From a virus, in IMG/VR virus record IMGVR_UViG_3300028925_002769, positions 1-26,869 of that record: a stretch of 26,869 nt of DNA; one strand, written 5' to 3'. The stretch's first letter is position 1. Every line of letters starts with the position of its first letter. The notes below the pieces were generated by a model, which saw only the letters and a program-made list of their open reading frames with translations, searched no databases and had not been told where the DNA came from. Position numbers and translations under genes: made by a program. Of the stretch, positions 3,603-26,869 are shown piece after piece.

Positions 3603-3840
3603 TGGACTTGCCAATCTTAGACTGTCTCAGATGCTCCGGTTCTTTTGAGTAGCCTCTGATCTGGGTGACGTTGTCTTTGTTCATAGATTTAAGCAATGCT
3701 TCAGCGATGTCTGGACTTAGCCCGGTGCTTTCCGACAATGCTTTCGTCCCTGTTTTAAGACTCCGCAAACCTCGTTTATAATCCACCATGTCTTCGATTG
3801 CTTGGCGGTGTTGTATTTCTTCTAGGTAAGTTTTAGCCAT
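3586..3840 (-). CDS. Hypothetical protein (84 aa)
   Basis: The ATG at 3840 lies inside the last codons of the helicase gene, about 14 bases after an AGGAGAGA. The protein is helical: residues 1-45 contain EEIQHRQAIEDMVDYKRGLR and residues 36-55 (LSESTGLSPDIAEALLKSM) resemble a short UBA- or HTH-like helical bundle. The C-terminus is basic. It overlaps the helicase by 19 bases and the next gene by 17, so translation is likely coupled. A helicase partner protein is a reasonable guess from position alone. Confidence 0.6.
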   Translation of the reverse strand: MAKTYLEEIQHRQAIEDMVDYKRGLRSLKTGTKALSESTGLSPDIAEALLKSMNKDNVTQIRGYSKEPEHLRQSKIGKSNEPKR

Positions 3841-5276
3841 TCTCTTGCTTTCTCTCCTAATACTAATGCGCCTATGTTAATTTTATTGCGAAGTGATTCC
3901 ACGATACGCTCATCGATTGTGCCATCAGATATCAAATCAATATAGGTCACTGGGTTTTTTTGACCGATGCGGTGCGCCCTGTCCTCGCTTTGGATTCTAG
4001 TCTCCAAGTTGAAGTCATTGGCATAGTATACCACAAGGTTGGCCTCGGTCAAAGTTAAGCCATATCCTGCGGTAGCTGGGTTACCCACAAAGTATTTCAG
4101 TGGGTGGTTGGGGTTCTGGAAGTTCTGAACGATAGCCAGACGTTCGTCATCTTTGGTATCTCCAAAGTACGCCGCAGCGGAACCGGCTCCGAACTCTTTG
4201 TTCAGCATCGAGGTGATTGATTTAATATCATGACGGAACCGCGACCAGATGATTGCCTTGCCATCATGTTCGTCCATGATTTCTTTAAGTGCGTCTGTTC
4301 TTTTGGTTGGAAAGTATTGCACATCACCCTCGTCGGTCTTGATATGACCGGACAGGATTTGTTGTAGGCGCAAAAGCTGTGTAATTACTGCGGGTGCGCT
4401 GACCAGTTCACCGTTGTCCAGTAAGAGCATTGCTTGTCGTGATATGTCGTTGTACATTTTTCTTTGTTCGGGGGTCAGGTTCACATATCTAACGGTGTAT
4501 GTTTTTTCTGGCAGATCCAAGCATTCTTTTTTCAGTACGCGATAGCTGAATGTTGCAATTCTTTCGGTCAACTCATCGAGGTATCGGTATCCAACCACTT
4601 GTGTGAACGACCTGGCGCCCATCTTCTGTTGTTTGGTGATGGCATACCGGCCTTGGAACGCCCAGTATGATTCGCCTAGCATCCCTCGACGGAGGAACTC
4701 TGCTTGAGCATAGATATCCAGGGGGGACTTGGTGATTGGTGATCCGGTTAGTAGTCTCTTGTATGAGAACCCATCTGCTATCTCCATCAAGGACTTTGTT
4801 CTCTTTGCCTTGGGGTTTTTGATGGTGGTGCTTTCATCGATGGCAATCATGCCATACTGACCAAGGTGTTTAGCCATCCACTTGCCGGCGTTTTGTCCTT
4901 TGGCCGTGGAGAATGCTTCAACATTCATAACGAATATTGTGAGGCCAGCGAATCCTTTAGTAATTGATTTCAATTCTTCTGTTTGTTTCTTGTTTGGGTT
5001 TGCCACCCACCGTATGATCCGAATCGGCACATCATCTGACATATGCTGCGGTATTTCCTTGGCTACCCAGTTTCGATACACGCCTTTCGGTGCGATGATT
5101 AACGCGAAGTTAATCTTACCTTCCAAGAATAGCTGGCCCATGTTATCTATGAGGACTTTCGACTTGCCGGTCCCCATTTCCATAAAGAAACCAAAGGATC
5201 CGCGAGATCCAGCAGCGTCCAGTGCTGTCCGTTGATGATCAAATGGTTTAGTTTTAAATTTATAGTTGACTGTCAT
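3822..5276 (-). CDS. SNF2-family (SF2) DNA helicase/translocase (484 aa)
   Basis: I chose the ATG at 5276 (MTVNYKFKTKPFDHQ) because GGGAG lies seven bases upstream, rather than the in-frame ATG at 5318, which would run through the promoter region. Motif I is MEMGTGKS near residues 32-39. Motif II is AIDEST near 145-150, with DEST in place of the classic DEAH, as seen in many phage SNF2 proteins. Motif III is LLTGSP near 175-180. The C-terminal RecA domain carries QSEDRAHRIGQKNPV, the SNF2 motif VI. The enzyme should hydrolyse ATP and move along double-stranded DNA, in replication, recombination or stripping of bound proteins. It heads a leftward operon and is transcribed from the divergent regulatory region shared with the replication operon. 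Confidence 0.95.
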   Translation of the reverse strand: MTVNYKFKTKPFDHQRTALDAAGSRGSFGFFMEMGTGKSKVLIDNMGQLFLEGKINFALIIAPKGVYRNWVAKEIPQHMSDDVPIRIIRWVANPNKKQTEELKSITKGFAGLTIFVMNVEAFSTAKGQNAGKWMAKHLGQYGMIAIDESTTIKNPKAKRTKSLMEIADGFSYKRLLTGSPITKSPLDIYAQAEFLRRGMLGESYWAFQGRYAITKQQKMGARSFTQVVGYRYLDELTERIATFSYRVLKKECLDLPEKTYTVRYVNLTPEQRKMYNDISRQAMLLLDNGELVSAPAVITQLLRLQQILSGHIKTDEGDVQYFPTKRTDALKEIMDEHDGKAIIWSRFRHDIKSITSMLNKEFGAGSAAAYFGDTKDDERLAIVQNFQNPNHPLKYFVGNPATAGYGLTLTEANLVVYYANDFNLETRIQSEDRAHRIGQKNPVTYIDLISDGTIDERIVESLRNKINIGALVLGEKAREWLKLT

Positions 5277-5295
5277 GTGTTTTCTCCCATATACT
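5266..5295 (+). promoter_or_regulatory. Sigma70-like promoter for the replication operon
   Basis: TTGACT (5266-5271) and TATACT (5290-5295) are separated by 18 bases and point right, with an expected transcript start near 5302. This is 50 bases before the ATG at 5354. The -35 box overlaps the first codons of the divergent SNF2 gene. Both boxes differ from consensus at one base each. Confidence 0.65.
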
Positions 5296-5297
5296 CT

Positions 5298-5326
5298 CAA
5301 ATACGGCACAATACACATTGTGTCAA
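5298..5326 (-). promoter_or_regulatory. Sigma70-like promoter for the SNF2 operon
   Basis: On the minus strand a perfect TTGACA (5326-5321) is followed after 17 bases by TATTTG (5303-5298), a weak -10. The expected start is near 5291, about 15 bases before the ATG at 5276, leaving just enough room for the GGGAG ribosome binding site. The 16-bp palindrome fills nearly all of the spacer. Confidence 0.5.
5307..5322. promoter_or_regulatory. Perfect palindrome, candidate operator for both divergent promoters
   Basis: CACAATACACATTGTG consists of six-base perfect inverted arms (CACAAT/ATTGTG) around a four-base centre. It lies between the -10 and -35 of the leftward promoter and just after the predicted start of the rightward one. 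A dimeric repressor bound here could block both directions. The binding protein is unknown; the small HTH, RHH and AlpA-like proteins in this window are candidates. Confidence 0.6.
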
Positions 5327-5353: not shown

Positions 5354-5914
5354 ATGGAAGACATATTCGATGACATGTTCGACACAAGCCAAGCGTTGGC
5401 CGGTGTGGACACAGAAACCGGGATAACTTTATCCGGTATGGTAAGGCAGGTCACGGCTCTCGACAAAGACATTGAGGCCGCGGAGGTCCACCTCAAGATC
5501 TTGAAGGAAGCGCGGAGAACCATCACGCACGACCGTATCCCAAGCCTTATGGATGAAATGGGTGTGGAGAAGTTGGAAGTTGAGGGCGCATCGGTCGCTT
5601 GTAAACCTCTGGTACACGCATCTATTCCTGTAGCGCGAAGAGATGAGGCGTATAACTGGCTTCGTCAGAACGGACTTGATGACATTATAAAGAACGATGT
5701 TGTTATTACGTTCGGCAAGGGCGAGGACAATGTTGCGGGTAATCTTGTAGGCTTACTACAGGAGAAGGGCTTTGATCCAAAGACCAAGACTCACATTCAT
5801 GCGTCTACTCTTAAGGCATTTGTTAAGGAGCGGGTAGCTAACGGTAGGCCCATCGACCTTGATATGTTCGGGGCGTTTGTATCAACAGCAGCAGAAGTAA
5901 AGAGGAAAGCATAA
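5354..5914 (+). CDS. Conserved-type replication-operon protein, function unknown (186 aa)
   Basis: AGGA at 5341-5344 precedes the ATG by nine bases. The N-terminus is acidic (MEDIFDDMFD). Residues 24-60 look like a helix or short coiled coil (MVRQVTALDKDIEAAEVHLK). Residues 61-90 appear as strands (GVEKLEVEGASVACKPLVHA), and the C-terminal half contains the segments EAYNWLRQNG and KTHIHASTLKAFVKERVANG, the latter resembling a small DNA-binding or helical domain. It is the first gene of the replication operon and is coupled by TAATG to the SSB-like gene. That position suggests a partner of the ssDNA-binding protein or a nuclease inhibitor, but neither can be shown here. Confidence 0.7.
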   Translation: MEDIFDDMFDTSQALAGVDTETGITLSGMVRQVTALDKDIEAAEVHLKILKEARRTITHDRIPSLMDEMGVEKLEVEGASVACKPLVHASIPVARRDEAYNWLRQNGLDDIIKNDVVITFGKGEDNVAGNLVGLLQEKGFDPKTKTHIHASTLKAFVKERVANGRPIDLDMFGAFVSTAAEVKRKA

Positions 5915-6732
5915 TGGGTAACGCAGTAGCTAATAAAAAAAGTGCAGAGTTAAGCACAGATATTCTCGACGATATCTTTGAAACCGCTGGTGAAGGCGCG
6001 TCATTTAGTAGTGACGAGATGCAGATCCCGTTTGTCCGTCTGTTACAGGCCATGAGCCCTCAGATTAACAAGCGCAATGCCGAGTTCATTGCCGGCGCCG
6101 AGCAAGGAGATGCGTATAACAACGTGACTAACCAGTACTGGTCTGGCGAAAAGGGAATAAATATTATCCCTTGCTTCCAGTGTACAGAATACTTGGAGTT
6201 TGTACCTCGCGACTTGGGTGGTGGGTTCAAAGGCAAGATCCCAGCGAGTGATCCGTTGATCAATAAAACAAGACGAGAGGGTGGCAAAGAAATTCTACCC
6301 AACGGCAACGAACTGGTTAAGTCTGACCAGCACTTCTGCCTGATCTTGGATGATGAGGGATCATACCAACCGGCTGTCATTGACATGAAGTCTTCTGGGT
6401 TGAAGGTTAGCCGCCGTTGGAAGACCAACATCTCTATGCTTAGAGTTAAGAACCCAAAGTCAGGTGAGTTAGTTCAGCCGGCTTTGTTTGCAACGATCTG
6501 GCGTATGTATTCGGTTGAGGAAAGCAATGACCAAGGCACTTGGAATAACTGGGCTGTTGAACATGTTCGGTTAGTCACGCCTGAAGATCGTCCTTTAATG
6601 CTGGCAGCTAAATCATTCCGCGATTCAATTCTTGCGGGTGAAGCCAAAGCTGCGGCGGAACCTACCGTAGTTAGCGGTGGTTCTGGAGATTCCACAGCAG
6701 CCCCAATGAGAGATGACGAAATTCCGTTCTAA
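5914..6732 (+). CDS. Phage ssDNA-binding protein-like (272 aa)
   Basis: The protein has an acidic N-terminus (STDILDDIFETAGEGASF), then a domain from about residue 35 to 235 with segments IPFVRLLQAMSPQ, GDAYNNVTNQYWSGEKGINI and EFVPRDLGGGFKGK. These resemble a group of phage proteins annotated as ssDNA-binding or recombination-associated. The last 35 residues are a flexible Gly/Ser/Ala linker ending in RDDEIPF. Bacterial SSB proteins end in a very similar acidic tip (E. coli SSB ends DDDIPF) that recruits partner enzymes. The architecture of domain, linker and acidic tip therefore supports an SSB role at the replication fork. An intrinsic terminator follows its stop. The family assignment is from memory of the pattern. 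Confidence 0.65.
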   Translation: MGNAVANKKSAELSTDILDDIFETAGEGASFSSDEMQIPFVRLLQAMSPQINKRNAEFIAGAEQGDAYNNVTNQYWSGEKGINIIPCFQCTEYLEFVPRDLGGGFKGKIPASDPLINKTRREGGKEILPNGNELVKSDQHFCLILDDEGSYQPAVIDMKSSGLKVSRRWKTNISMLRVKNPKSGELVQPALFATIWRMYSVEESNDQGTWNNWAVEHVRLVTPEDRPLMLAAKSFRDSILAGEAKAAAEPTVVSGGSGDSTAAPMRDDEIPF

Positions 6733-6746
6733 AAACATAAACAAAG

Positions 6747-6780
6747 ATTCACGCTAACGGCGTTAGCGTGAATGTTTTTT
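6747..6780 (+). terminator. Intrinsic terminator inside the replication operon
   Basis: ATTCACGCTAACG (6747-6759) is the exact reverse complement of CGTTAGCGTGAAT (6761-6773), followed by G and six T (6775-6780). This is a textbook rho-independent hairpin. The T-tract runs directly into AGGAG (6781-6785), the ribosome binding site of the primase gene at 6792, with no separate promoter visible between them. Read-through is therefore needed for the downstream genes. Confidence 0.9.
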
Positions 6781-6791
6781 AGGAGCGGATT

Positions 6792-8324
6792 ATGTCCCAA
6801 GCTAAAATGTTAATGGGAGCGTTTGATGGTTCAATCGCTGCCCATGGTACAACGTCTGTTGGGCGTGTTGGTCGGAACGGCAAGGCTGAAGCAACCAGTA
6901 AGATCGTGCGCGGCCCACTGACCGAGGAACTTGTACAGTCTCACATCGAGGGTAAGCAGGGGGTTGGATCAATACCAATCACTCAGGAAAACCTGTGCCG
7001 ATTCGGGGCTCTGGATATTGATACCTATGATCTTAACTTGGTGGAGTTGAATACAAAGATCCACCAGATGAACATGCCTTTGATCTTGTGCCGTTCCAAG
7101 TCGGGCGGCGCCCACCTCTATTTGTTTCTGCAAGAATGGGAGCCGGCGGCACTGGTTCGTGAATACCTGACCGAGATGTCTGTAGCACTGGGGTTCTCTG
7201 GGTGTGAGATATTCCCCAAGCAGGACACTATCCTGGCGGAGCGCGGAGATGTTGGTAACTTCATTAACATGCCGTACTTTGGCGGTGACATCACCACCCG
7301 CTATGCCTTGGATAAAAAGGGCGAGTCCATGGAGATGCAGGACTTCTTCGCTGCGGTTGACGCTGTCCGGATATCTATTTCGGAACTGAATGAACTGAAG
7401 TTCGGGGGAGATAGAAAGCACTTTACCGATGGACCGTATTGCTTGGAGGTTATTACTGGGCAGGGCGCGGTTACAGAACACCGGAACACGTTCATGTTTA
7501 ATGTGGGTGTGTACTGCCGGCTGAAGTGGCCCGACGATTGGAAGAAGCATCACGAAGAATACAACAGGACTTTATGCAGCCCTGCCCTTGAGGCAACTGA
7601 GATCGTTGCGTTGCAGAAGTCGCTCATGAAGAAGGACTACTTCCTGCAATGTAGTTCCTGCCCGTTAAAGGATTACTGTGATGTGCAGATCTGCAAGACA
7701 AGGCAGTTTGGTGTGGGTAACTCGGCTCCAGACAAGGCTAACATTGGCGGCTTGACTGTCATGCTATCAGAGCCGCGTCATTACTTCATGGATGTGGATG
7801 GTAACCGGTTGCAGCTAACGGTGGAGCAATTACAGAACCAAGGTCTTTGGCAACGGGCGTGTATGGAGCAACTTAATTTCATGCCGCCTCAAGTTAAGCC
7901 ACAAGATTGGCAGGTTGCAATCAACACGCTGATGAAGAGTTCTGTCACCATTGATGTTCCTCCGGAGCTTACGATCAGGGGCCAGTTCCAAGAGTTGCTG
8001 AAGACGTTTTGCACAAGTCGGATACGGGCGCTGTCTCCCGAGGAGATGGAGTTAGGCAAGCCCTGGACTGAGGATGGTATGACGTACTTCACTATGGTTG
8101 GTTTGGAACTGTTTCTAAAGAACAGGCAGTTCACACATTACAAAGCGGTTCACATACAGGAACAGTTGAAGACGCTGAACGATGGGCAACCCTGTCACAA
8201 AGAGAAATATATAAAAAAAGAAAACGGAAAGTCTAAAAAGTTACGTGTCTGGCATGTGCCGGCATTTGAAGATGAAGAAATAGAACTGGAACCAAAGGAG
8301 TTTAGTGATGACATCCCCTTCTGA
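6792..8324 (+). CDS. AEP-superfamily (TOTE/PrimPol-like) DNA primase (510 aa)
   Basis: The N-terminal half shows the archaeo-eukaryotic primase signatures: FGALDIDTYD with catalytic D75 and D77, CRSKSGGAHLYLF with H108 (residues 100-112), EIFPKQD with K143, and GNFINMPYFGG. A central cluster C287, C290, C296, C301 (CSSCPLKDYC, CDVQICKTRQFG) probably binds zinc or an iron-sulfur cluster, as in related phage primases. The C-terminal part looks like a helical accessory domain followed by an acidic stretch ending SDDIPF, which resembles the acidic tip of SSB proteins. It should prime or extend on single-stranded DNA. Its ribosome binding site touches the upstream terminator, so its expression probably depends on read-through. 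No helicase domain is fused; separate SNF2 and UvrD helicases lie nearby. Confidence 0.88.
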   Translation: MSQAKMLMGAFDGSIAAHGTTSVGRVGRNGKAEATSKIVRGPLTEELVQSHIEGKQGVGSIPITQENLCRFGALDIDTYDLNLVELNTKIHQMNMPLILCRSKSGGAHLYLFLQEWEPAALVREYLTEMSVALGFSGCEIFPKQDTILAERGDVGNFINMPYFGGDITTRYALDKKGESMEMQDFFAAVDAVRISISELNELKFGGDRKHFTDGPYCLEVITGQGAVTEHRNTFMFNVGVYCRLKWPDDWKKHHEEYNRTLCSPALEATEIVALQKSLMKKDYFLQCSSCPLKDYCDVQICKTRQFGVGNSAPDKANIGGLTVMLSEPRHYFMDVDGNRLQLTVEQLQNQGLWQRACMEQLNFMPPQVKPQDWQVAINTLMKSSVTIDVPPELTIRGQFQELLKTFCTSRIRALSPEEMELGKPWTEDGMTYFTMVGLELFLKNRQFTHYKAVHIQEQLKTLNDGQPCHKEKYIKKENGKSKKLRVWHVPAFEDEEIELEPKEFSDDIPF

Positions 8325-8532
8325 AGAAAGGCTGTTAAAAATTGCAGAGTTAACGGAGTGGTTGGGGATCTCCCATTCAACCATTTACAAGTGGGTAAAC
8401 GATGGCAGCTTTCCAAAGCCGCTAGTGCTTGGTGATACGGGGGCCAAGAACAGTTCTACCCGTTGGATTGAAGCCGAGATCGTTGAGTGGCTAGCTACCC
8501 GTCCGCGTAGCAAGGTTACACCCAATGTCTGA
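8308..8532 (+). CDS. AlpA/excisionase-like MerR-type HTH protein (74 aa)
   Basis: I choose the ATG at 8308, seven bases after AAGGAG (8295-8300), over the GTG at 8305. The sequence around residues 8-32 (LKIAELTEWLGISHSTIYKW) followed by VNDGSFPKPLVLG and RWIEAEIVEWLATR is the typical winged-HTH pattern of AlpA and Xis-like proteins. These bind DNA as small regulators or architectural factors. The start lies inside the last codons of the primase gene and the end overlaps the helicase gene by eight bases. No integrase is present in the window, so an excision role is not supported; transcription control of the phage operons is more likely. Confidence 0.85.
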   Translation: MTSPSEERLLKIAELTEWLGISHSTIYKWVNDGSFPKPLVLGDTGAKNSSTRWIEAEIVEWLATRPRSKVTPNV

Positions 8533-10045
8533 ACTCATGCTGTTGGGACCACCAGGGTGTGGTAAAACATACAACCTCATTCAACGTGTTGAGGACGCAT
8601 TGAATGAGGGAGTCCAACCCGAACAGATCGGGTTCATGTCCTTTACCAAGAAGGCCGTTCAAGAAGCAGTGGAGAGAGCGTGTAGCAAGTTCGGGTTTGA
8701 GGAAAAGCGTCTGCCTTTCTTCCGCACCCTACACTCCATTGCCTTTCGGGGCTTGGGCATTGTGTCTGGGGACATGCTTTCCAAGGAGGATTGGCAGAAG
8801 ATGGGCCGCGGTCTGGGCGTTGTGTTTGAAAATGCAGAGGGCGCGGTTCCTGACGATGGCATTATCATCCCTGCCATTGGAGGTGACGGGGGTAAATACA
8901 TCCAACTTATTGATCGGGCTCGTTACCGTTTGATTGGTTTAGATAAGGAGTTTAACGAGGCCGAGGATTGGTCGTTGTCTTTTGCCAAGATGAAACAAAT
9001 ATCAGAAACAACACAACAGTATAAAAGCACCTTTGCCAAACTGGACTTTGTAGATCTTATTGAACAGTACCTGTTTGTGGAACCGCCGTTCTTAAAGCTG
9101 CTGATTGTGGACGAGGCACAAGACCTTACTCCATTGCAGTGGAAGATGGTTAATCACATGAAGTCCAATGCTGAGAACGTAGTATATGCGGGTGACGATG
9201 ACCAAGCTATCCACCGATGGACGGGCGTTGAGGTTGCAGAGTTTATTAACGCAACCGAAAACAAGATCATTCTAAGCCAGTCGTACCGGTTGCCCCGCAC
9301 TGTATGGGCCTTGTCCCAGAAGATCGTAAAGCGGATCGACGATAGGGTTGAGAAGAAGTTCATGCCCACAGCAGAGGAGGGCGCGGTTTGTTTTCACCTG
9401 AGTCGGGACACCATTCCTTACTACCAAGGTTCGTGGACAATCATGGCTAGAACCAACGGGTACGTTCGTGATTTTGCAGATAAGCTGCGGGAAGACGGAT
9501 TTATGTACAGCGTTAAGGGTCGGCCCTCGATTAATCCGAAAGACGCTGATGCGATCATGGCGTGGCGCGATCTGCAAGCCGGCCGGTCTTTGTACTTGGG
9601 GCGGGTTAAGACGATGTACGCTCTGGCACCCAAGCAGGGGGACGGGGCTGTTGTAAAGCGCGGCTCGTCTAGATTACTTGAAGATGCGGATCCGGAATTG
9701 CAGTTGGACTACGATACATTGGTGCGTGACTTTGGTTTGATTGCGCCTTTGGACACAGATGCGATGGACATTGTGCGGTTTGGTTATCACCAGAAGCTAT
9801 ACGTCCGTTCGCTAGAGCGAAGAGGTGAGGACATCACCCAGCCACCGCGGATTAAACTATCTACGTTTCACGCAATGAAGGGAGGGGAGGACGATTACTG
9901 TGTGGTTTATTTAGGCACGACGAGAGCGTGTCTTGAAAGCAGATATCCAGATGATGAACACCGTGCATTCTATGTGGGCGTTACAAGAGCCCGGAAGGAA
10001 CTGCACATATTGGATACAGAAAAAAGGTATAGGTACGAGATATGA
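8525..10045 (+). CDS. UvrD/Rep-like superfamily 1 DNA helicase (506 aa)
   Basis: SF1A motifs are in order: GPPGCGKT at residues 8-15 (motif I), FMSFTKKAVQEAVER (Ia), RTLHSIAFR, VDEAQD at 195-200 (II), AGDDDQAIHRWTG at 222-234 (III), SQSYRLPRTVW (IV), KLSTFHAMKGGEDDYCVVY near the C-terminus (V) and FYVGVTRARKEL (VI). The protein is shorter than E. coli UvrD (720 aa), mainly in the accessory subdomains. It should unwind DNA 3' to 5' using ATP. With no DnaB- or T7 gp4-type helicase in the window, this or the SNF2 enzyme may supply fork unwinding for the phage polymerase. The ATGA overlap couples it to the methyltransferase gene. Confidence 0.95.
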   Translation: MSELMLLGPPGCGKTYNLIQRVEDALNEGVQPEQIGFMSFTKKAVQEAVERACSKFGFEEKRLPFFRTLHSIAFRGLGIVSGDMLSKEDWQKMGRGLGVVFENAEGAVPDDGIIIPAIGGDGGKYIQLIDRARYRLIGLDKEFNEAEDWSLSFAKMKQISETTQQYKSTFAKLDFVDLIEQYLFVEPPFLKLLIVDEAQDLTPLQWKMVNHMKSNAENVVYAGDDDQAIHRWTGVEVAEFINATENKIILSQSYRLPRTVWALSQKIVKRIDDRVEKKFMPTAEEGAVCFHLSRDTIPYYQGSWTIMARTNGYVRDFADKLREDGFMYSVKGRPSINPKDADAIMAWRDLQAGRSLYLGRVKTMYALAPKQGDGAVVKRGSSRLLEDADPELQLDYDTLVRDFGLIAPLDTDAMDIVRFGYHQKLYVRSLERRGEDITQPPRIKLSTFHAMKGGEDDYCVVYLGTTRACLESRYPDDEHRAFYVGVTRARKELHILDTEKRYRYEI

Positions 10046-10610: not shown

Positions 10611-11243
10611 ATGAATAGAGATGATTTAATAGACGATGCCTTGAGAAAGATCAACGGGGCTCGGCAAGAAGAATACGGCGATGTATATGACAGTTTCACC
10701 ACCATATCTTTGGGATGGGACATAATTACGAAGAACGCTCTCGCCACACATGGGTGTGTAAGCCCGATGCATGTTGGCCTGATGATGGATTGGCTGAAGA
10801 CGAGCCGACTGTTGGTGGACATAAGCCATGAAGATTCGTGGGTCGATAAGGTTGGGTACGCCGCCCTCTCAGCAGAGGTTGCAGAACGGTATTATAAAAC
10901 CGGGGGAGTTTCCCCCGATGCTCAACCAGAAGAAGATAAAAATGGTAATAACGCCGTTATTACCCAGAATATTCAACCTAAAGAAGAAAGTAAGACCATT
11001 TCCCGCGCACAGTTAGCCGCGGAACTGGAGCCTGGGCTCAATGCTTTGTTCGGTATGGAGTATGATCCATACGTTGAGCCGAAGACATGCCAGAAGATCG
11101 ATGGTCGCACCAGAAAGCCTTGTGGGCTCCCGTTAGTTGGCAGACAAAAGAAGTTCTGTAGTAAGCACGTTCCAAATAATACCAAGGCAGCAAGGAAATA
11201 TTATGGCAAGAGATCGAAAAGACAAGTCAACAATCAGCTTTAA
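10611..11243 (+). CDS. DUF6378/MazG-like protein with C-terminal Cys/His cluster (210 aa)
   Basis: GAGGAG lies just upstream of the ATG. Residues 1-95 (GARQEEYGDVYDSF, MMDWLKTSRLL, SWVDKVGYAALSAEVAERYY) match the small all-helical phage family that resembles MazG nucleotide pyrophosphohydrolases. Residues 96-155 are a Glu/Asn-rich linker. Residues 160-186 carry C160, C171, C183 and H186 (KTCQKIDGRTRKPCGLPL, FCSKH), a probable zinc finger, followed by a strongly basic tail. A role in cleaning or reshaping the nucleotide pool next to DNA polymerase is plausible; the zinc finger could tether it to DNA or RNA. The end overlaps the polymerase start by 41 bases. Confidence 0.7.
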   Translation: MNRDDLIDDALRKINGARQEEYGDVYDSFTTISLGWDIITKNALATHGCVSPMHVGLMMDWLKTSRLLVDISHEDSWVDKVGYAALSAEVAERYYKTGGVSPDAQPEEDKNGNNAVITQNIQPKEESKTISRAQLAAELEPGLNALFGMEYDPYVEPKTCQKIDGRTRKPCGLPLVGRQKKFCSKHVPNNTKAARKYYGKRSKRQVNNQL

Positions 11244-13125
11244 TAACCGGATGGAACTCGACAGGCTAGATCCCAACTGGATTATTCCAACAGGGTATCC
11301 TGACCTGACAGGTTACAAAGAAATCGCGGTTGATCTTGAGACGTGTGATCCAAACCTTACTACCCGTGGCCCTGGTTGGGCCACGAAGGACGGGTTCATT
11401 GCAGGAATTGCCGTAGCTGCTGGGGATTACAAAGCCTACTTCCCTATGCGCCACCAGAACGGACACAACCTAGATCCCAAGATGACCATGCGTTGGTTCA
11501 AGCAACAGATGGATACGCCTAGGATTGATAAGATCATGCACAATGCAACCTACGATGCCGGTTGGCTACAGGCCGAGGGCATAGAGGTGAAGGGCAGGAT
11601 CATTGACACCATGGTGACCGGCGCGATTGTGGACGAGAACCGGTTTTCCTACAGCCTGAATAACTTGGGCCGTGATTACATTGATATGCGTAAGGACGAG
11701 AAGGCACTTCGCGCTGCGGCCAGAGACTGGGGATTTGATCCCAAGTCAGAGATGTGGCGTATGCTGCCAATGGATGTGGGGGCGTATGCTGAACAGGATG
11801 CCCTGATGACACTGAAGCTATGGCAGCGGTTAAAGATAGAGCTAGACAAGCAGGAACTGTGGTCGATCTGGGAATTGGAAACCAGCCTCATACCCCTCAT
11901 GATTAAGATGAGACAGGCTGGGGTTCCCGTTGATGTATCAAAGGCCGAGCAAGCTAGGGAAGGACTGACCAAAAGGGTTGCTCAGATCAAGGAATCTATT
12001 AAGAAGCAAACCGGTGTGGACATCGAGCCGTGGGCCGCGACCTCTGTTCAGAAGGTCTTTGATAAGCTGAATCTGGAATACAAGAAGACGGAATCGGGAC
12101 AGGCGTCTTTCACTAAGCAGTTCCTTAATCTGCACCCCCACCCCATGGCTAAAGAGATCGTTAGGCTGCGAGAGTTAGACAAGGCCAACACAACATTCAT
12201 CGACACCATCCTGCGCCACGAACACAAGGGCCGCATTCATTGCGAGTTCCACCAGTTGCGGAGCGATGATGGGGGCACGGTTACGGGCCGGTTCTCCTCG
12301 TCCAACCCCAATCTTCAGCAGATTCCTGCGCGGGATCCGGAAATCAAGAAGCTCATACGGGGTCTGTTTGTACCGGAGCAAGGATGCAAGTGGGGATCGT
12401 TTGATTACTCCAGCCAAGAGCCACGGTTGCTGGTACACTTTGCTGCGGGTCTGAGCGATGATCACAAAGATCCTATGGTGGATGAGATCGTTAAGGAGTG
12501 GCAGATCCGCGATGTTGATCTGCACCAGATGGTTGCTGATTTCGCGAACATCACCCGCAAGGAAGCCAAGACCGTGAACCTTGGCATTATGTACGGCATG
12601 GGCAAGGCCAAGCTAGCCGACCAGTTGGACATTTCGTTGCAGGAAGCATCGGATTTGCTGAACACACACCAGACTAAAGTTCCGTTTGTTAAAGGCCTTG
12701 CAGGTATGGCGTCCAATACAGCCGCTAGAAGGGGCTCCATACGCACTATACTGGGCCGTAGGTGCCGGTTTGACATGTGGGAGCCAGTAGGGTGGGAATA
12801 TAACAAACCTCTGCCTCTAAAGGAAGCACAGGAGCAATACTGCAGTGTGATGGGAAAGCAGATCAGGAGGGCATTCACCTACAAGGCGCTCAATAAACTG
12901 ATACAAGGATCCGCAGCGGACCAAACCAAGAAGGCGATGGCCGATTGCTATGCCGAGGGATTGATTCCTATGCTCACAGTTCACGATGAACTATGCTTTT
13001 CGATAGAAAGCCAAGAGCAAGCATCTCGGATTACGGAGATCATGGAGACAGGTATGTCACACTTGTTAAAGGTTCCGTCGAAGGTTGATGAGGAGCTAAA
13101 GGATAATTGGGGAGAGATCGAATGA
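11203..13125 (+). CDS. polA: DNA polymerase, family A, with 3'-5' exonuclease (640 aa)
   Basis: The start is the ATG at 11203 (MARDRKDKST), preceded by AAGGA at 11192-11196; the frame is open further upstream but inside the previous gene. The exonuclease domain has D44/E46 (AVDLETCDP), N114/D118 (MHNATYDAGW) and Y195/D199 (YAEQDA). The polymerase domain has motif A at D401 (FDYSSQEPRLLVHFA), motif B at 452-465 (RKEAKTVNLGIMYG) and motif C at 594-596 (LTVHDELCF). There is no 5'-3' exonuclease domain. The position equivalent to E. coli Phe762 and T7 Tyr526 is Leu460. In marine phages this residue has been linked to polymerase speed, fidelity and lifestyle. It is the replicative polymerase of this phage. 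Confidence 0.97.
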   Translation: MARDRKDKSTISFNNRMELDRLDPNWIIPTGYPDLTGYKEIAVDLETCDPNLTTRGPGWATKDGFIAGIAVAAGDYKAYFPMRHQNGHNLDPKMTMRWFKQQMDTPRIDKIMHNATYDAGWLQAEGIEVKGRIIDTMVTGAIVDENRFSYSLNNLGRDYIDMRKDEKALRAAARDWGFDPKSEMWRMLPMDVGAYAEQDALMTLKLWQRLKIELDKQELWSIWELETSLIPLMIKMRQAGVPVDVSKAEQAREGLTKRVAQIKESIKKQTGVDIEPWAATSVQKVFDKLNLEYKKTESGQASFTKQFLNLHPHPMAKEIVRLRELDKANTTFIDTILRHEHKGRIHCEFHQLRSDDGGTVTGRFSSSNPNLQQIPARDPEIKKLIRGLFVPEQGCKWGSFDYSSQEPRLLVHFAAGLSDDHKDPMVDEIVKEWQIRDVDLHQMVADFANITRKEAKTVNLGIMYGMGKAKLADQLDISLQEASDLLNTHQTKVPFVKGLAGMASNTAARRGSIRTILGRRCRFDMWEPVGWEYNKPLPLKEAQEQYCSVMGKQIRRAFTYKALNKLIQGSAADQTKKAMADCYAEGLIPMLTVHDELCFSIESQEQASRITEIMETGMSHLLKVPSKVDEELKDNWGEIE

Positions 13126-24354: not shown

Positions 24355-26869
24355 TTACCCTTCTAAGACCGCTATACGTGCTGTTAAAGCATCGTTCTTT
24401 GCGGAGAGTTCTTGTAATGCTTTGACTAGAATTGGTACAAACTTACTGTACTGTAGACCCATCTGCTTGCCATCACCTGTGTGGCTAGAGACTAGGTTAG
24501 TCTTATTGCTCTTGTTGTATCCTGCCGCTATTTCTAGGGCTTCTACTTCTTGAGCCTTAAAGCCAATGTCTAGCCAGTCTTCTTTGTGCGTACCGTCTGG
24601 AGACTGTGCGTTAAGATCATAGTCCTCATTATTTTTATCGCCGTAATTAGAACGCTTATCCCACTTATATGTTACTGGGGCTAGTGCATTAACGAAGTCT
24701 AGGCCAAGGTCTAATGCAGTAAAGTCCGTCTTATCACGTTGGTCTGAGGCTGCTGTTATATCTACTTGAGCGTTTATAGAGGTTATATTTTCATCCCCTA
24801 TGAAGGCTCTGTTGTTACCTGTGGTTTGATTACCACCGGGGCTACCTGTACGTCCTGCGTCGTTACCTAAAAGCAGATTATTACCGCCAGAGGTAAGGGC
24901 AGCCCCTGCATCACCTCCTAAAGCAGTATTATTTGTTCCTGTACAAACATTTAAAGCACCAAGTCCAACAGCAACATTATCATTACCACAGTTAGCACTT
25001 AATGCTAAATGACCAACGGCAACATTATTATTACCATCAGTAGAACCATCTCCTGCTAGACCACCTATAAAGGTGTTCTGTATGCCTGTTGTGACTGTAC
25101 TACCTGCTAACGTACCAACGGCAGTATTGTAAGAATCAGTAGCTGTAGTAAATCTTTGAACAGATAAAGCACTTCTGCCAATAGCAACATTTCTACTGCC
25201 TAGCTGATCGTTGCCTAAAGCGTCAAAGCCTACTGCCGTGTTAAGATCTGCATCCGTTAAAGCATCACCAGCATTAGCACCTATCAGGGCGTTCTGTACG
25301 CCTGTGGTGACTGCAGCACCTGCAAGAAACCCTATCGCTACGTTGAGAGAATCTGTAGCAGTTGTAAAGTTTTGAGCAGTTAAAGCAGATTGGCCTATAG
25401 CTACACTATTACCGCCTTTTGTATCAGCAGATAAAGAAGACCTACCCAGTGCTACATTAAAACTGCCCGTTGTTAAAGCATCACCAGCACTTCCACCAAA
25501 AATACAATTACTAACTCCAGTAGTAATTGCCAATCCAGCTTGATAGCCAACAGCCGTATTCAAATTAGTGTCATCTTTATTCTGTGTTGATAAAGCCTGA
25601 TAACCTATTGCTACATTTTGTCTGCCGGTATCTTCTGTGCTTAAAGATTCAAAACCTACAGCAACATTAGTACCACCAGTTGTAAGTGCATCTCCAGCTA
25701 GACCACCTATGATGGTGTTCTGTACGCCTGTTGTGACAAGCCTTCCTGCGTCATACCCAACGGCTGTGTTAAAAGCATCCGTAGCTGTAGTAAAGTTTTG
25801 AGTCAGTAATGCAAATGCACCAACTGCAACAGACCGACCACCTAACGTATCAGCACTCAATGCACTAATCCCAATCGCAACATTATGATCCGCATCAGTT
25901 AAAGCATCACCTGCAAGACCACCTATGAGGGTGTTTTCTATGCCAGTGGTGACTGCTGATCCTGCGTTATATCCAACTGCTACATTGAAAGTATCTGTAG
26001 CAGTCGTAAAGTTTTGTGTGTTTAATGCAAAACTACCGATTGCAATACTGTTTGAGCCTTTGGTATCAGAGGTTAATGCTTGCATTCCCATAGCTGTATT
26101 ATGATGACCTACTGTTAATGCATCACCTGATAATGCCCCTACAAAAGTATTTACAGTACCCGTGGTGACTGCTCCACCTGCGTTATAACCAATCGCTGTG
26201 TTGTTAGAATCTGTAGCTGATGTAAAGTTTTGGGTTTGAAGAGCAAAGTAACCAACCGCAGTAGAACGACTACCTAACGTATCTGTTGTTAATGCTTGAT
26301 GACCAACCGCTATGTTAAAATCAGCATCAGTAAGCGCATCACCTGCTAAACTACCAATCAGAGTGTTTGCTACACCCGTTGTAACTAATACTCCTGCATC
26401 AGCACCCACAGCAACATTGTAAGCATCTGCCCCTGCGTTCTGAGTTTTTAAAGCCCTGTGTCCAACAGCAACATTAAAACCATGAGCATCTTCAGTTTTA
26501 AGAGCCTCAAAACCTACAGCCACATTATTATCACCCGTGGTCAAAGCAGTACCAGCCTCATCGCCCAAGACCACGTTGTAGTTACCGCCAGAGGCTATTG
26601 AGTTACCTGCGTTTACACCAATTCTAACATTGTTGTCACCTGCTGAAGCAGTGATAATATCTGCGCCGTCTGCAAAGGTTACGTCAGCCGCAAAGTTAGC
26701 TGCACCGTCTACGTCAATTACGTCTAGGTTAGTTGTACCGTCTACGTCTAGGTCTCCATTGAAGTCTACGTTTCCTGCAACAGCAAGAGTTGTAGCCATG
26801 TCAACTGCACCATCAATGTCTACAATGTCTAAGTTAGTAGTTCCATCTATATCAATATCACCAGAGATG
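24355..26869 (-). CDS. Tail fibre with YadA-like repeats and S74 chaperone domain (5' end outside window)
   Basis: The frame is open to the right edge; the ATG at 26799 lies inside a repeated DGTTNLDxxDxDGA stretch and is not the true start. Residues are numbered from that ATG. From about residue 57 to 665 there are over thirty units of a 17-21 residue motif (NxAVGxxALxxxTTGxx), as in trimeric YadA/Hep_Hag beta-rolls. Residues 685-814 form the peptidase S74 intramolecular chaperone: SDQRDK holds the Ser685-Lys690 pair, followed by LAPVTYKWDKR and DIGFKAQEVEAL, and it ends in a coiled coil (LVKALQELSAKNDALTARIA). S74 domains help trimers fold and then cleave themselves off just before the Ser. 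The protein should be a host-binding fibre. Confidence 0.92.
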   Translation of the reverse strand, partial: ISGDIDIDGTTNLDIVDIDGAVDMATTLAVAGNVDFNGDLDVDGTTNLDVIDVDGAANFAADVTFADGADIITASAGDNNVRIGVNAGNSIASGGNYNVVLGDEAGTALTTGDNNVAVGFEALKTEDAHGFNVAVGHRALKTQNAGADAYNVAVGADAGVLVTTGVANTLIGSLAGDALTDADFNIAVGHQALTTDTLGSRSTAVGYFALQTQNFTSATDSNNTAIGYNAGGAVTTGTVNTFVGALSGDALTVGHHNTAMGMQALTSDTKGSNSIAIGSFALNTQNFTTATDTFNVAVGYNAGSAVTTGIENTLIGGLAGDALTDADHNVAIGISALSADTLGGRSVAVGAFALLTQNFTTATDAFNTAVGYDAGRLVTTGVQNTIIGGLAGDALTTGGTNVAVGFESLSTEDTGRQNVAIGYQALSTQNKDDTNLNTAVGYQAGLAITTGVSNCIFGGSAGDALTTGSFNVALGRSSLSADTKGGNSVAIGQSALTAQNFTTATDSLNVAIGFLAGAAVTTGVQNALIGANAGDALTDADLNTAVGFDALGNDQLGSRNVAIGRSALSVQRFTTATDSYNTAVGTLAGSTVTTGIQNTFIGGLAGDGSTDGNNNVAVGHLALSANCGNDNVAVGLGALNVCTGTNNTALGGDAGAALTSGGNNLLLGNDAGRTGSPGGNQTTGNNRAFIGDENITSINAQVDITAASDQRDKTDFTALDLGLDFVNALAPVTYKWDKRSNYGDKNNEDYDLNAQSPDGTHKEDWLDIGFKAQEVEALEIAAGYNKSNKTNLVSSHTGDGKQMGLQYSKFVPILVKALQELSAKNDALTARIAVLEG
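24805..26631 (-). repeat. Seven copies of a 72-residue (about 216-bp) fibre super-repeat
   Basis: Within the fibre gene the short units fall into groups of four in fixed order: xVGxxALxxDTxGSx, AVGxxALxTQNFTTATDxx, NTAVGYxAGxxVTTGxx and NTxIGGLAGDALTDADx. Seven such groups can be laid out end to end, with irregular units at both ends. The boundaries given are approximate. The DNA copies differ at many third positions, so they are not recent duplications in full. Confidence 0.85.

Follow-up and report, generated by a model that had tools for sequence, protein, structure and literature searches.

In phage T7, the SSB (gp2.5) ends in DGDF and the primase-helicase (gp4) ends in NDTDF, and cyanophage Syn5 carries the pair SYDF (SSB) and SYDDF (primase). 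The T7 gp4 tails bind basic patches on the polymerase gp5 (PMC12593628), and the gp2.5 tail contacts both the polymerase and the primase-helicase (PMC5686142). In phage HK620, the SSB tip NDYPPF is needed for the phage partner Sak4 (PMC5928155). The idea of a docking peptide is therefore already known from SSB tips and T7 tails. The literature that we searched contained no SSB-like tip on a phage primase and no co-evolving tip on an AEP primase and a member of the gp34 family. Here we describe such a pair of proteins, the tips of which co-vary beyond shared ancestry.

Two neighbouring replication proteins with similar tips

The window, which is the whole 26,869-nt stretch of DNA analysed, is a virus fragment (IMG/VR record IMGVR_UViG_3300028925_002769). 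It contains a replication block in which every gene lies on the plus strand except the first, which encodes an SNF2 helicase. The relevant features are listed by position.

3822–5318, minus strand: SNF2-type helicase (PF00176/PF00271), a conserved part of the module (148 of 148 long loci); candidate receptor
5354–5914, plus strand: DUF7307 protein (Pam3 gp33-like; PF23984), found without exception just upstream of gp34; a candidate partner or receptor
5914–6732, plus strand: Pam3_gp34-family protein of 272 aa (gp34; PF23977, phrog_2402), a putative phage ssDNA-binding protein
6709–6729 (stop codon 6730–6732), plus strand: gp34 C-terminal tip RDDEIPF, at the ORF end ...APMRDDEIPF
6747–6780, plus strand: terminator-like hairpin and T-run between gp34 and the primase, recognized by MFE and z-score
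6792–8324, plus strand: archaeo-eukaryotic-type (AEP-TOTE) primase of 510 aa (PF22548; phrog_21866, 'primase'; fold match)
8262–8321, plus strand: acidic tail of the primase, residues 491–510, predicted as coil without secondary structure (pLDDT 67–79)
8304–8321 (stop codon 8322–8324), plus strand: primase C-terminal tip SDDIPF, at the ORF end ...EPKEFSDDIPF
8308–8532, plus strand: AlpA-like HTH ORF (PF05930, E = 9.8e-13), the ATG of which shares nucleotides with the two Asp codons (D-D) in the tip of the primase
8525–10045, plus strand: UvrD-like helicase (PF00580), found in 145 of 148 long loci; candidate receptor
Between the UvrD-like helicase and PolA, plus strand: methyltransferase-like protein, then DUF6378 protein, both in the replication block
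11197–13125, plus strand: family A DNA polymerase (PolA; PF00476), a candidate receptor by analogy with T7 gp5

The ORF translations confirm the two tips named in the original prediction, RDDEIPF on the SSB-like protein and SDDIPF on the primase. Among loci with enough flanking sequence, DUF7307 lies directly 5′ of gp34 in 345 of 345, including that of Pseudomonas phage PB1, and the two genes form an obligate pair. The neighbours of the primase are gp34, DUF7307, UvrD, SNF2 and PolA; compared with the TOTE conflict operon of primase, nuclease and helicase, this neighbourhood looks like a replication module, judging from its gene content. Elsewhere in the window, an 814-aa protein (24355–26799, minus strand) has repeated NVAVG-type units that were recognized by eye, and its C-terminal part resembles, also by eye, the intramolecular chaperone of tail spikes.

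The protein gp34 belongs to PF23977 (Pam3_Gp34; E = 1.2e-61, 209 bits against a cut-off of 27), a family matched in profile searches by 69 of 69 gp34 relatives, and to PHROG phrog_2402 (E = 2.1e-61), which is labelled as of unknown function. It matches no Pfam SSB family, PF00436 included, and carries no SSB annotation in Pfam or PHROGs. Its AlphaFold model (pLDDT 88.6) has a beta-rich core spanning approximately residues 10–250 and a low-confidence, disordered tail from about residue 250. Confident Foldseek matches of this model are almost only uncharacterized phage proteins. A fold search returned nothing significant in the PDB, with bacterial SSB, Rim1 and CST entries recurring among the weak matches, and neither this search nor the profile search established gp34 as a recognizable OB-fold SSB. 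The description of the protein as SSB-like finds no counterpart in its annotation. In the window clade, the gp34 tip conforms to an SSB-Ct-type pattern, with conserved acidic residues and a hydrophobic-P-F end that has a free carboxylate, on a flexible tail. We infer, reasonably in our judgement, that gp34 is an SSB.

The gap between gp34 and the primase has an MFE of −18.6 kcal/mol for positions 6733–6791 (z = −4.6), and of 85 genomes examined, 18 (the window among them) have terminator-like hairpins of differing sequence at this position. The hairpin would possibly allow the putative SSB to be made in larger amounts than the primase, which would suit an SSB.

The primase scores 53.6 bits against PF22548 (AEP-TOTE primase domain; cut-off 27) and comprises an AEP-TOTE or CAPP-like catalytic domain, a Cys-rich middle part, a C-terminal domain and the acidic tail. 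Its model (pLDDT 92) has an N terminus matching the CAPP Prim-Pol structures 7nqd and 7nqf (E = 6e-10) and a coil at the C-terminal end. The putative catalytic DxD motif of AEP enzymes and the His that follows it further downstream appear as D75, D77 and H108, which are invariant among 72–84 homologues. Against the CAPP model NF040561, the primase scores 37 bits, below the equivalog cut-off of 200. Within the window clade, its tail has partly conserved acidic positions as well as E at −8 and L at −12, and its tip on the predicted coil likewise follows the SSB-Ct-type pattern.

Conservation of the tips

We collected 460 loci from annotated phage records and from scans of viral contigs in which both proteins and distant relatives served as queries. 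The last residue of the primase is F or Y in 139 of 159 clusters (90% identity) and that of gp34 in 123 of 148 clusters, as against 4.2% of the 3,379 other ORFs of at least 150 aa in the same loci, a difference that chance does not explain. The first two scans yielded 106 distinct primases, nearly all of which end in P-F preceded by at least one acidic or Asn residue. An unconserved primase tip would have refuted the original prediction; the tip is strongly conserved: in the window clade, P at −2 and F at −1 are invariant in 25 of 25 non-redundant primases and stand beside variable positions. The IPF of gp34 is similarly invariant (24 of 24) beside variable positions.

In the scanned window-clade contigs (up to 57 kb), the pattern [DE]IPF-stop occurs only at the ends of gp34 and the primase, to which matches were assigned by their 1.6-kb spacing, and gives two matches when both tips are intact. 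The reversed pattern gave none in the same contigs. The codons of the tips vary synonymously (CCC, CCA, CCG and CCT; ATC, ATT and ATA), which identifies the peptide as the conserved entity. A recent copying of tip DNA between the two genes was considered and rejected, because codon choice differs between them; the likeness of the tips is therefore not that of a recent copy.

Co-evolution of the two tips

Across the family, the last two residues of gp34 and the primase form pairs such as PF/PF, PY/PY, NY/NY, EF/EF, EL/DL and II/II. The DSL-LC04 clade has the tips -APF (gp34) and -SPF (primase), without acidic residues; the 023Pt clade has -TPY and -ENF; and the Acinetobacter/Providencia-type clade has -EY/-EF or -EF/-EF. 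In Acinetobacter phage JeffCo, a cultured relative, the tips are SDEY and KSEF. Locus L172 carries PEL and PDL, and SAR11 phages carry PY/PY and II/II. When proteins were clustered at 70% identity, the last two residues were identical in 32 of 87 pairs, compared with 12.8 in shuffled pairs (maximum 21 in 5,000 shuffles). The identical pairs include II/II, NY/NY and three cases of PY/PY.

Because clades inflate such counts of matching pairs, we fitted Pagel's models of dependent and of independent change to a phylogeny built from the two proteins, concatenated after their tails had been trimmed off. For a penultimate P, the likelihood-ratio statistic (LRT) was 28.0 in 151 genomes, a value reached by none of 200 parametric bootstraps, and 26.7 in a set of 141 genomes that includes cellular assemblies (0 of 120 bootstraps). 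For a last residue other than F, it was 22.9 in the latter set (0 of 120). A penultimate acidic residue gave no significant co-variation (LRT 6.4, with 6 of 120 simulations as large); this trait was significant by a plain Fisher test and was rejected after phylogenetic correction. Overall tail acidity was likewise not significant in the Pagel models. Parsimony places 11–14 changes of the penultimate P on each side, and the co-evolution signal is thus real and rests on a modest number of events.

In locus L399 and its relatives (L398–L402), the gp34 tail and the hydrophobic end of the primase have been lost together (...SFAGK and ...QKES, respectively).

A proposed docking site shared by both tips

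Co-variation of this kind is expected for two ligands of a single pocket, and it suggests that both tips use one docking site, encoded by the phage. We infer a shared phage-encoded receptor for which the tips compete, and we assign a probability of roughly 0.6 to the reading that both tips dock at one phage-encoded site. In the mechanism that we propose, gp34 and the primase would each present a flexible C-terminal tail that terminates in a hydrophobic carboxylate tip, in most cases P-F, and the two tips would dock at one site on a phage-encoded replication protein, in a T7-like manner. Lagging-strand DNA coated by gp34 would concentrate the receptor. The primase, carrying an identical plug, would then be recruited to the complex or, at priming, would take over the receptor in a hand-off by competition. 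By linkage, the candidate receptors are DUF7307, the SNF2 helicase and the UvrD-like helicase; PolA, by analogy, and the core of gp34 itself are further candidates.

The tip of gp34 is kept in phages whose primase lacks one (Pelagibacter phage HTVC023P and Nanhaivirus Pan1/R26L). Phage PB1 keeps SNF2, DUF7307 and gp34 (tip ...EEF), and the stretch read near its gp34 contains no AEP primase. This persistence without a primase tip or AEP primase, which counts against the shared-site model, indicates that the tip of gp34 also works by itself; that of the primase may be the addition.

If the receptor is the gp34 core, the ssDNA groove of gp34 would be covered by its own tail, in the way suggested for T7 gp2.5. 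The tail of the primase would bind this groove too, thereby reaching or displacing gp34. Such an arrangement accounts for the co-evolution of the tips and for phages in which gp34 has a tip and the primase has none. The human PrimPol tail and RPA offer a comparison. In a crystal of the Enc34 SSB, moreover, the acidic tail reaches into the groove of an adjacent molecule (PMC5686142). Non-acidic tips such as RSPF would, however, be poor mimics of ssDNA, and we regard the gp34 core as an unlikely receptor. This reading, being one particular form of the shared-site model, overlaps with the preferred explanation.

Phage tips and host SSB tips

The original prediction held that the primase tip could compete for host SSB partners or be recruited by the same proteins. 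A broader form of this idea is that both tips mimic the host SSB end DDDIPF and so recruit or sequester DnaG, Pol III chi, PriA, RecO, RecG and others. The pockets that receive the host SSB tip have been described in detail (PMC10164576, PMC5872125), and the window-clade tips DDEIPF and SDDIPF fit the host motif. Most tips in the family, however, are unlike those of the host, being often non-acidic (RSPF, GPAPF) or ending in II, EL or EY. In 13 cellular assemblies with such phages or elements, host SSB ORFs (PF00436) end in DD[DE]IPF; these ends were read by the pattern, and each ORF agrees in length with its PF00436 match. A further assembly, that of L475, yielded no host SSB ORF ending in DD[DE]IPF. 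In two SAR11 single-cell genomes among the 13 assemblies, the phage pairs are QPY/APY and APY/TPY, and the host SSB is still DD[DE]IPF.

A third phage protein of about 90 aa ends in DDIPF where gp34 and the primase end in EY and EF (L403:14134–14460 and about 30 related loci, L349–L396). Two PHROGs named single-strand DNA-binding protein match it, and no Pfam family does. These genomes therefore carry two tip codes each.

The phage tips are independent of the host SSB tip, and follow each other rather than the host. Because the family tips leave DDIPF while host SSBs keep DD[DE]IPF, host SSB partners are disfavoured as the general receptor, and we consider host mimicry by both tips quite unlikely. 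As a general role, competition for host SSB partners is not supported, given that the tips drift jointly to GSPF, PY, ENF, EF/EY, EL and II while host SSBs stay fixed. The companion suggestion, recruitment by the same proteins, gains indirect support from the co-variation of the tips. In the window's own clade, the tips are host-like in sequence, so mimicry of, or docking to, host proteins is possible there.

A separate observation concerns large AEP primases of 780–930 aa in Mesorhizobium and Rhodospirillales assemblies (L505:4899–7247, L518:2201–4954 and L519:4902–7685), which end in DEDIPF or DEDLPF and seem to be fusions with an ATPase or helicase-like part. No gp34 was found near these genes. 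Judged by their ends, they may represent another, distinct instance of a primase with an SSB-type tip, written in the host's own code.

Coincidence and coding constraint

The tips could also match without any shared receptor, if hydrophobic-ended acidic tails are generic to replication proteins and the match is a coincidence at the level of clades. The clades are few, and within groups of 50% identity the excess of matching is weaker (P about 0.01–0.03). Nevertheless, for two traits the dependence survives phylogenetic correction and the accompanying simulations, and among 102 ORF families in the 460 loci such a tip occurs only on the primase, gp34 and one small SSB family. Coincidence is therefore distinctly improbable.

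The start of the AlpA-like ORF overlaps the primase end in 61 of 62 clade members, usually with its ATG in primase codons −5/−4 or −4/−3, between which the start shifts. This overlap may constrain residues there, and could be a partial cause of the conserved acidic or Asn residues at −5/−4 and −4/−3, including an effect on D/N at −5/−4 that is possible in part. That the primase tip as a whole is kept because its codons overlap the next gene is scarcely credible, since its P-F codons lie outside the AlpA-like ATG and vary synonymously, the hydrophobic primase end persists without overlap in L164 (next CDS 124 bases downstream), and the gp34 tip overlaps no following gene; the overlap was thus rejected as the cause of P-F conservation.

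Implications

A shared phage-encoded docking site would be part of a larger picture, to which we give somewhat less than an even chance: a previously undescribed wiring code of the replisome across a broad set of phages that have AEP primases, in which a co-evolving gp34/primase plug fits one phage hub, the T7 arrangement was invented independently, and repeated drift away from the host DDIPF insulates the replisome from the host SSB interactome. The tip-sharing group is a large one of mostly marine phages. If the model is correct, it provides a first mechanistic handle on a very widespread and experimentally almost untouched module (SNF2 helicase, DUF7307, gp34, AEP primase and UvrD), assigns a putative SSB role to a family that has had no function, and leads one to expect a hub protein whose single pocket accepts both ligands. 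The natural tip variants (IPF, SPF, PY, EF, EL and II) would be ready-made tests of specificity, and shared SSB and primase tails would not be peculiar to T7.

Comparison with known systems

The primase shares its catalytic fold with the CAPP and TOTE AEP primases (7nqd/7nqf, E = 6e-10; PF22548), but unlike CAPP it falls below the NCBIfam cut-off (37 versus 200 bits) and is located in a phage replication module. In HK620, a phage SSB tip is read by the phage-encoded partner Sak4, as we propose here; there, however, the tip was reported on the SSB only, and the process is recombination rather than priming. The peptide logic is the same as that of the bacterial SSB tip DDDIPF, to which the window-clade tips are practically identical. 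Unlike in bacteria, the tip is also present on the primase, the wider family departs from DDIPF jointly with gp34, and gp34 has no PF00436 match.

Differences from T7 include the apparently unrelated proteins, an AEP primase without a fused helicase, and a gp34-family protein in place of gp2.5. The tip is P-F here and D-F in T7, where the receptor is the phage polymerase, whereas the proteins named above are candidates. With gp34 taken as the SSB, the likeness to T7 lies in the arrangement itself: neighbouring SSB and primase genes whose products end in matching acidic or hydrophobic tails.
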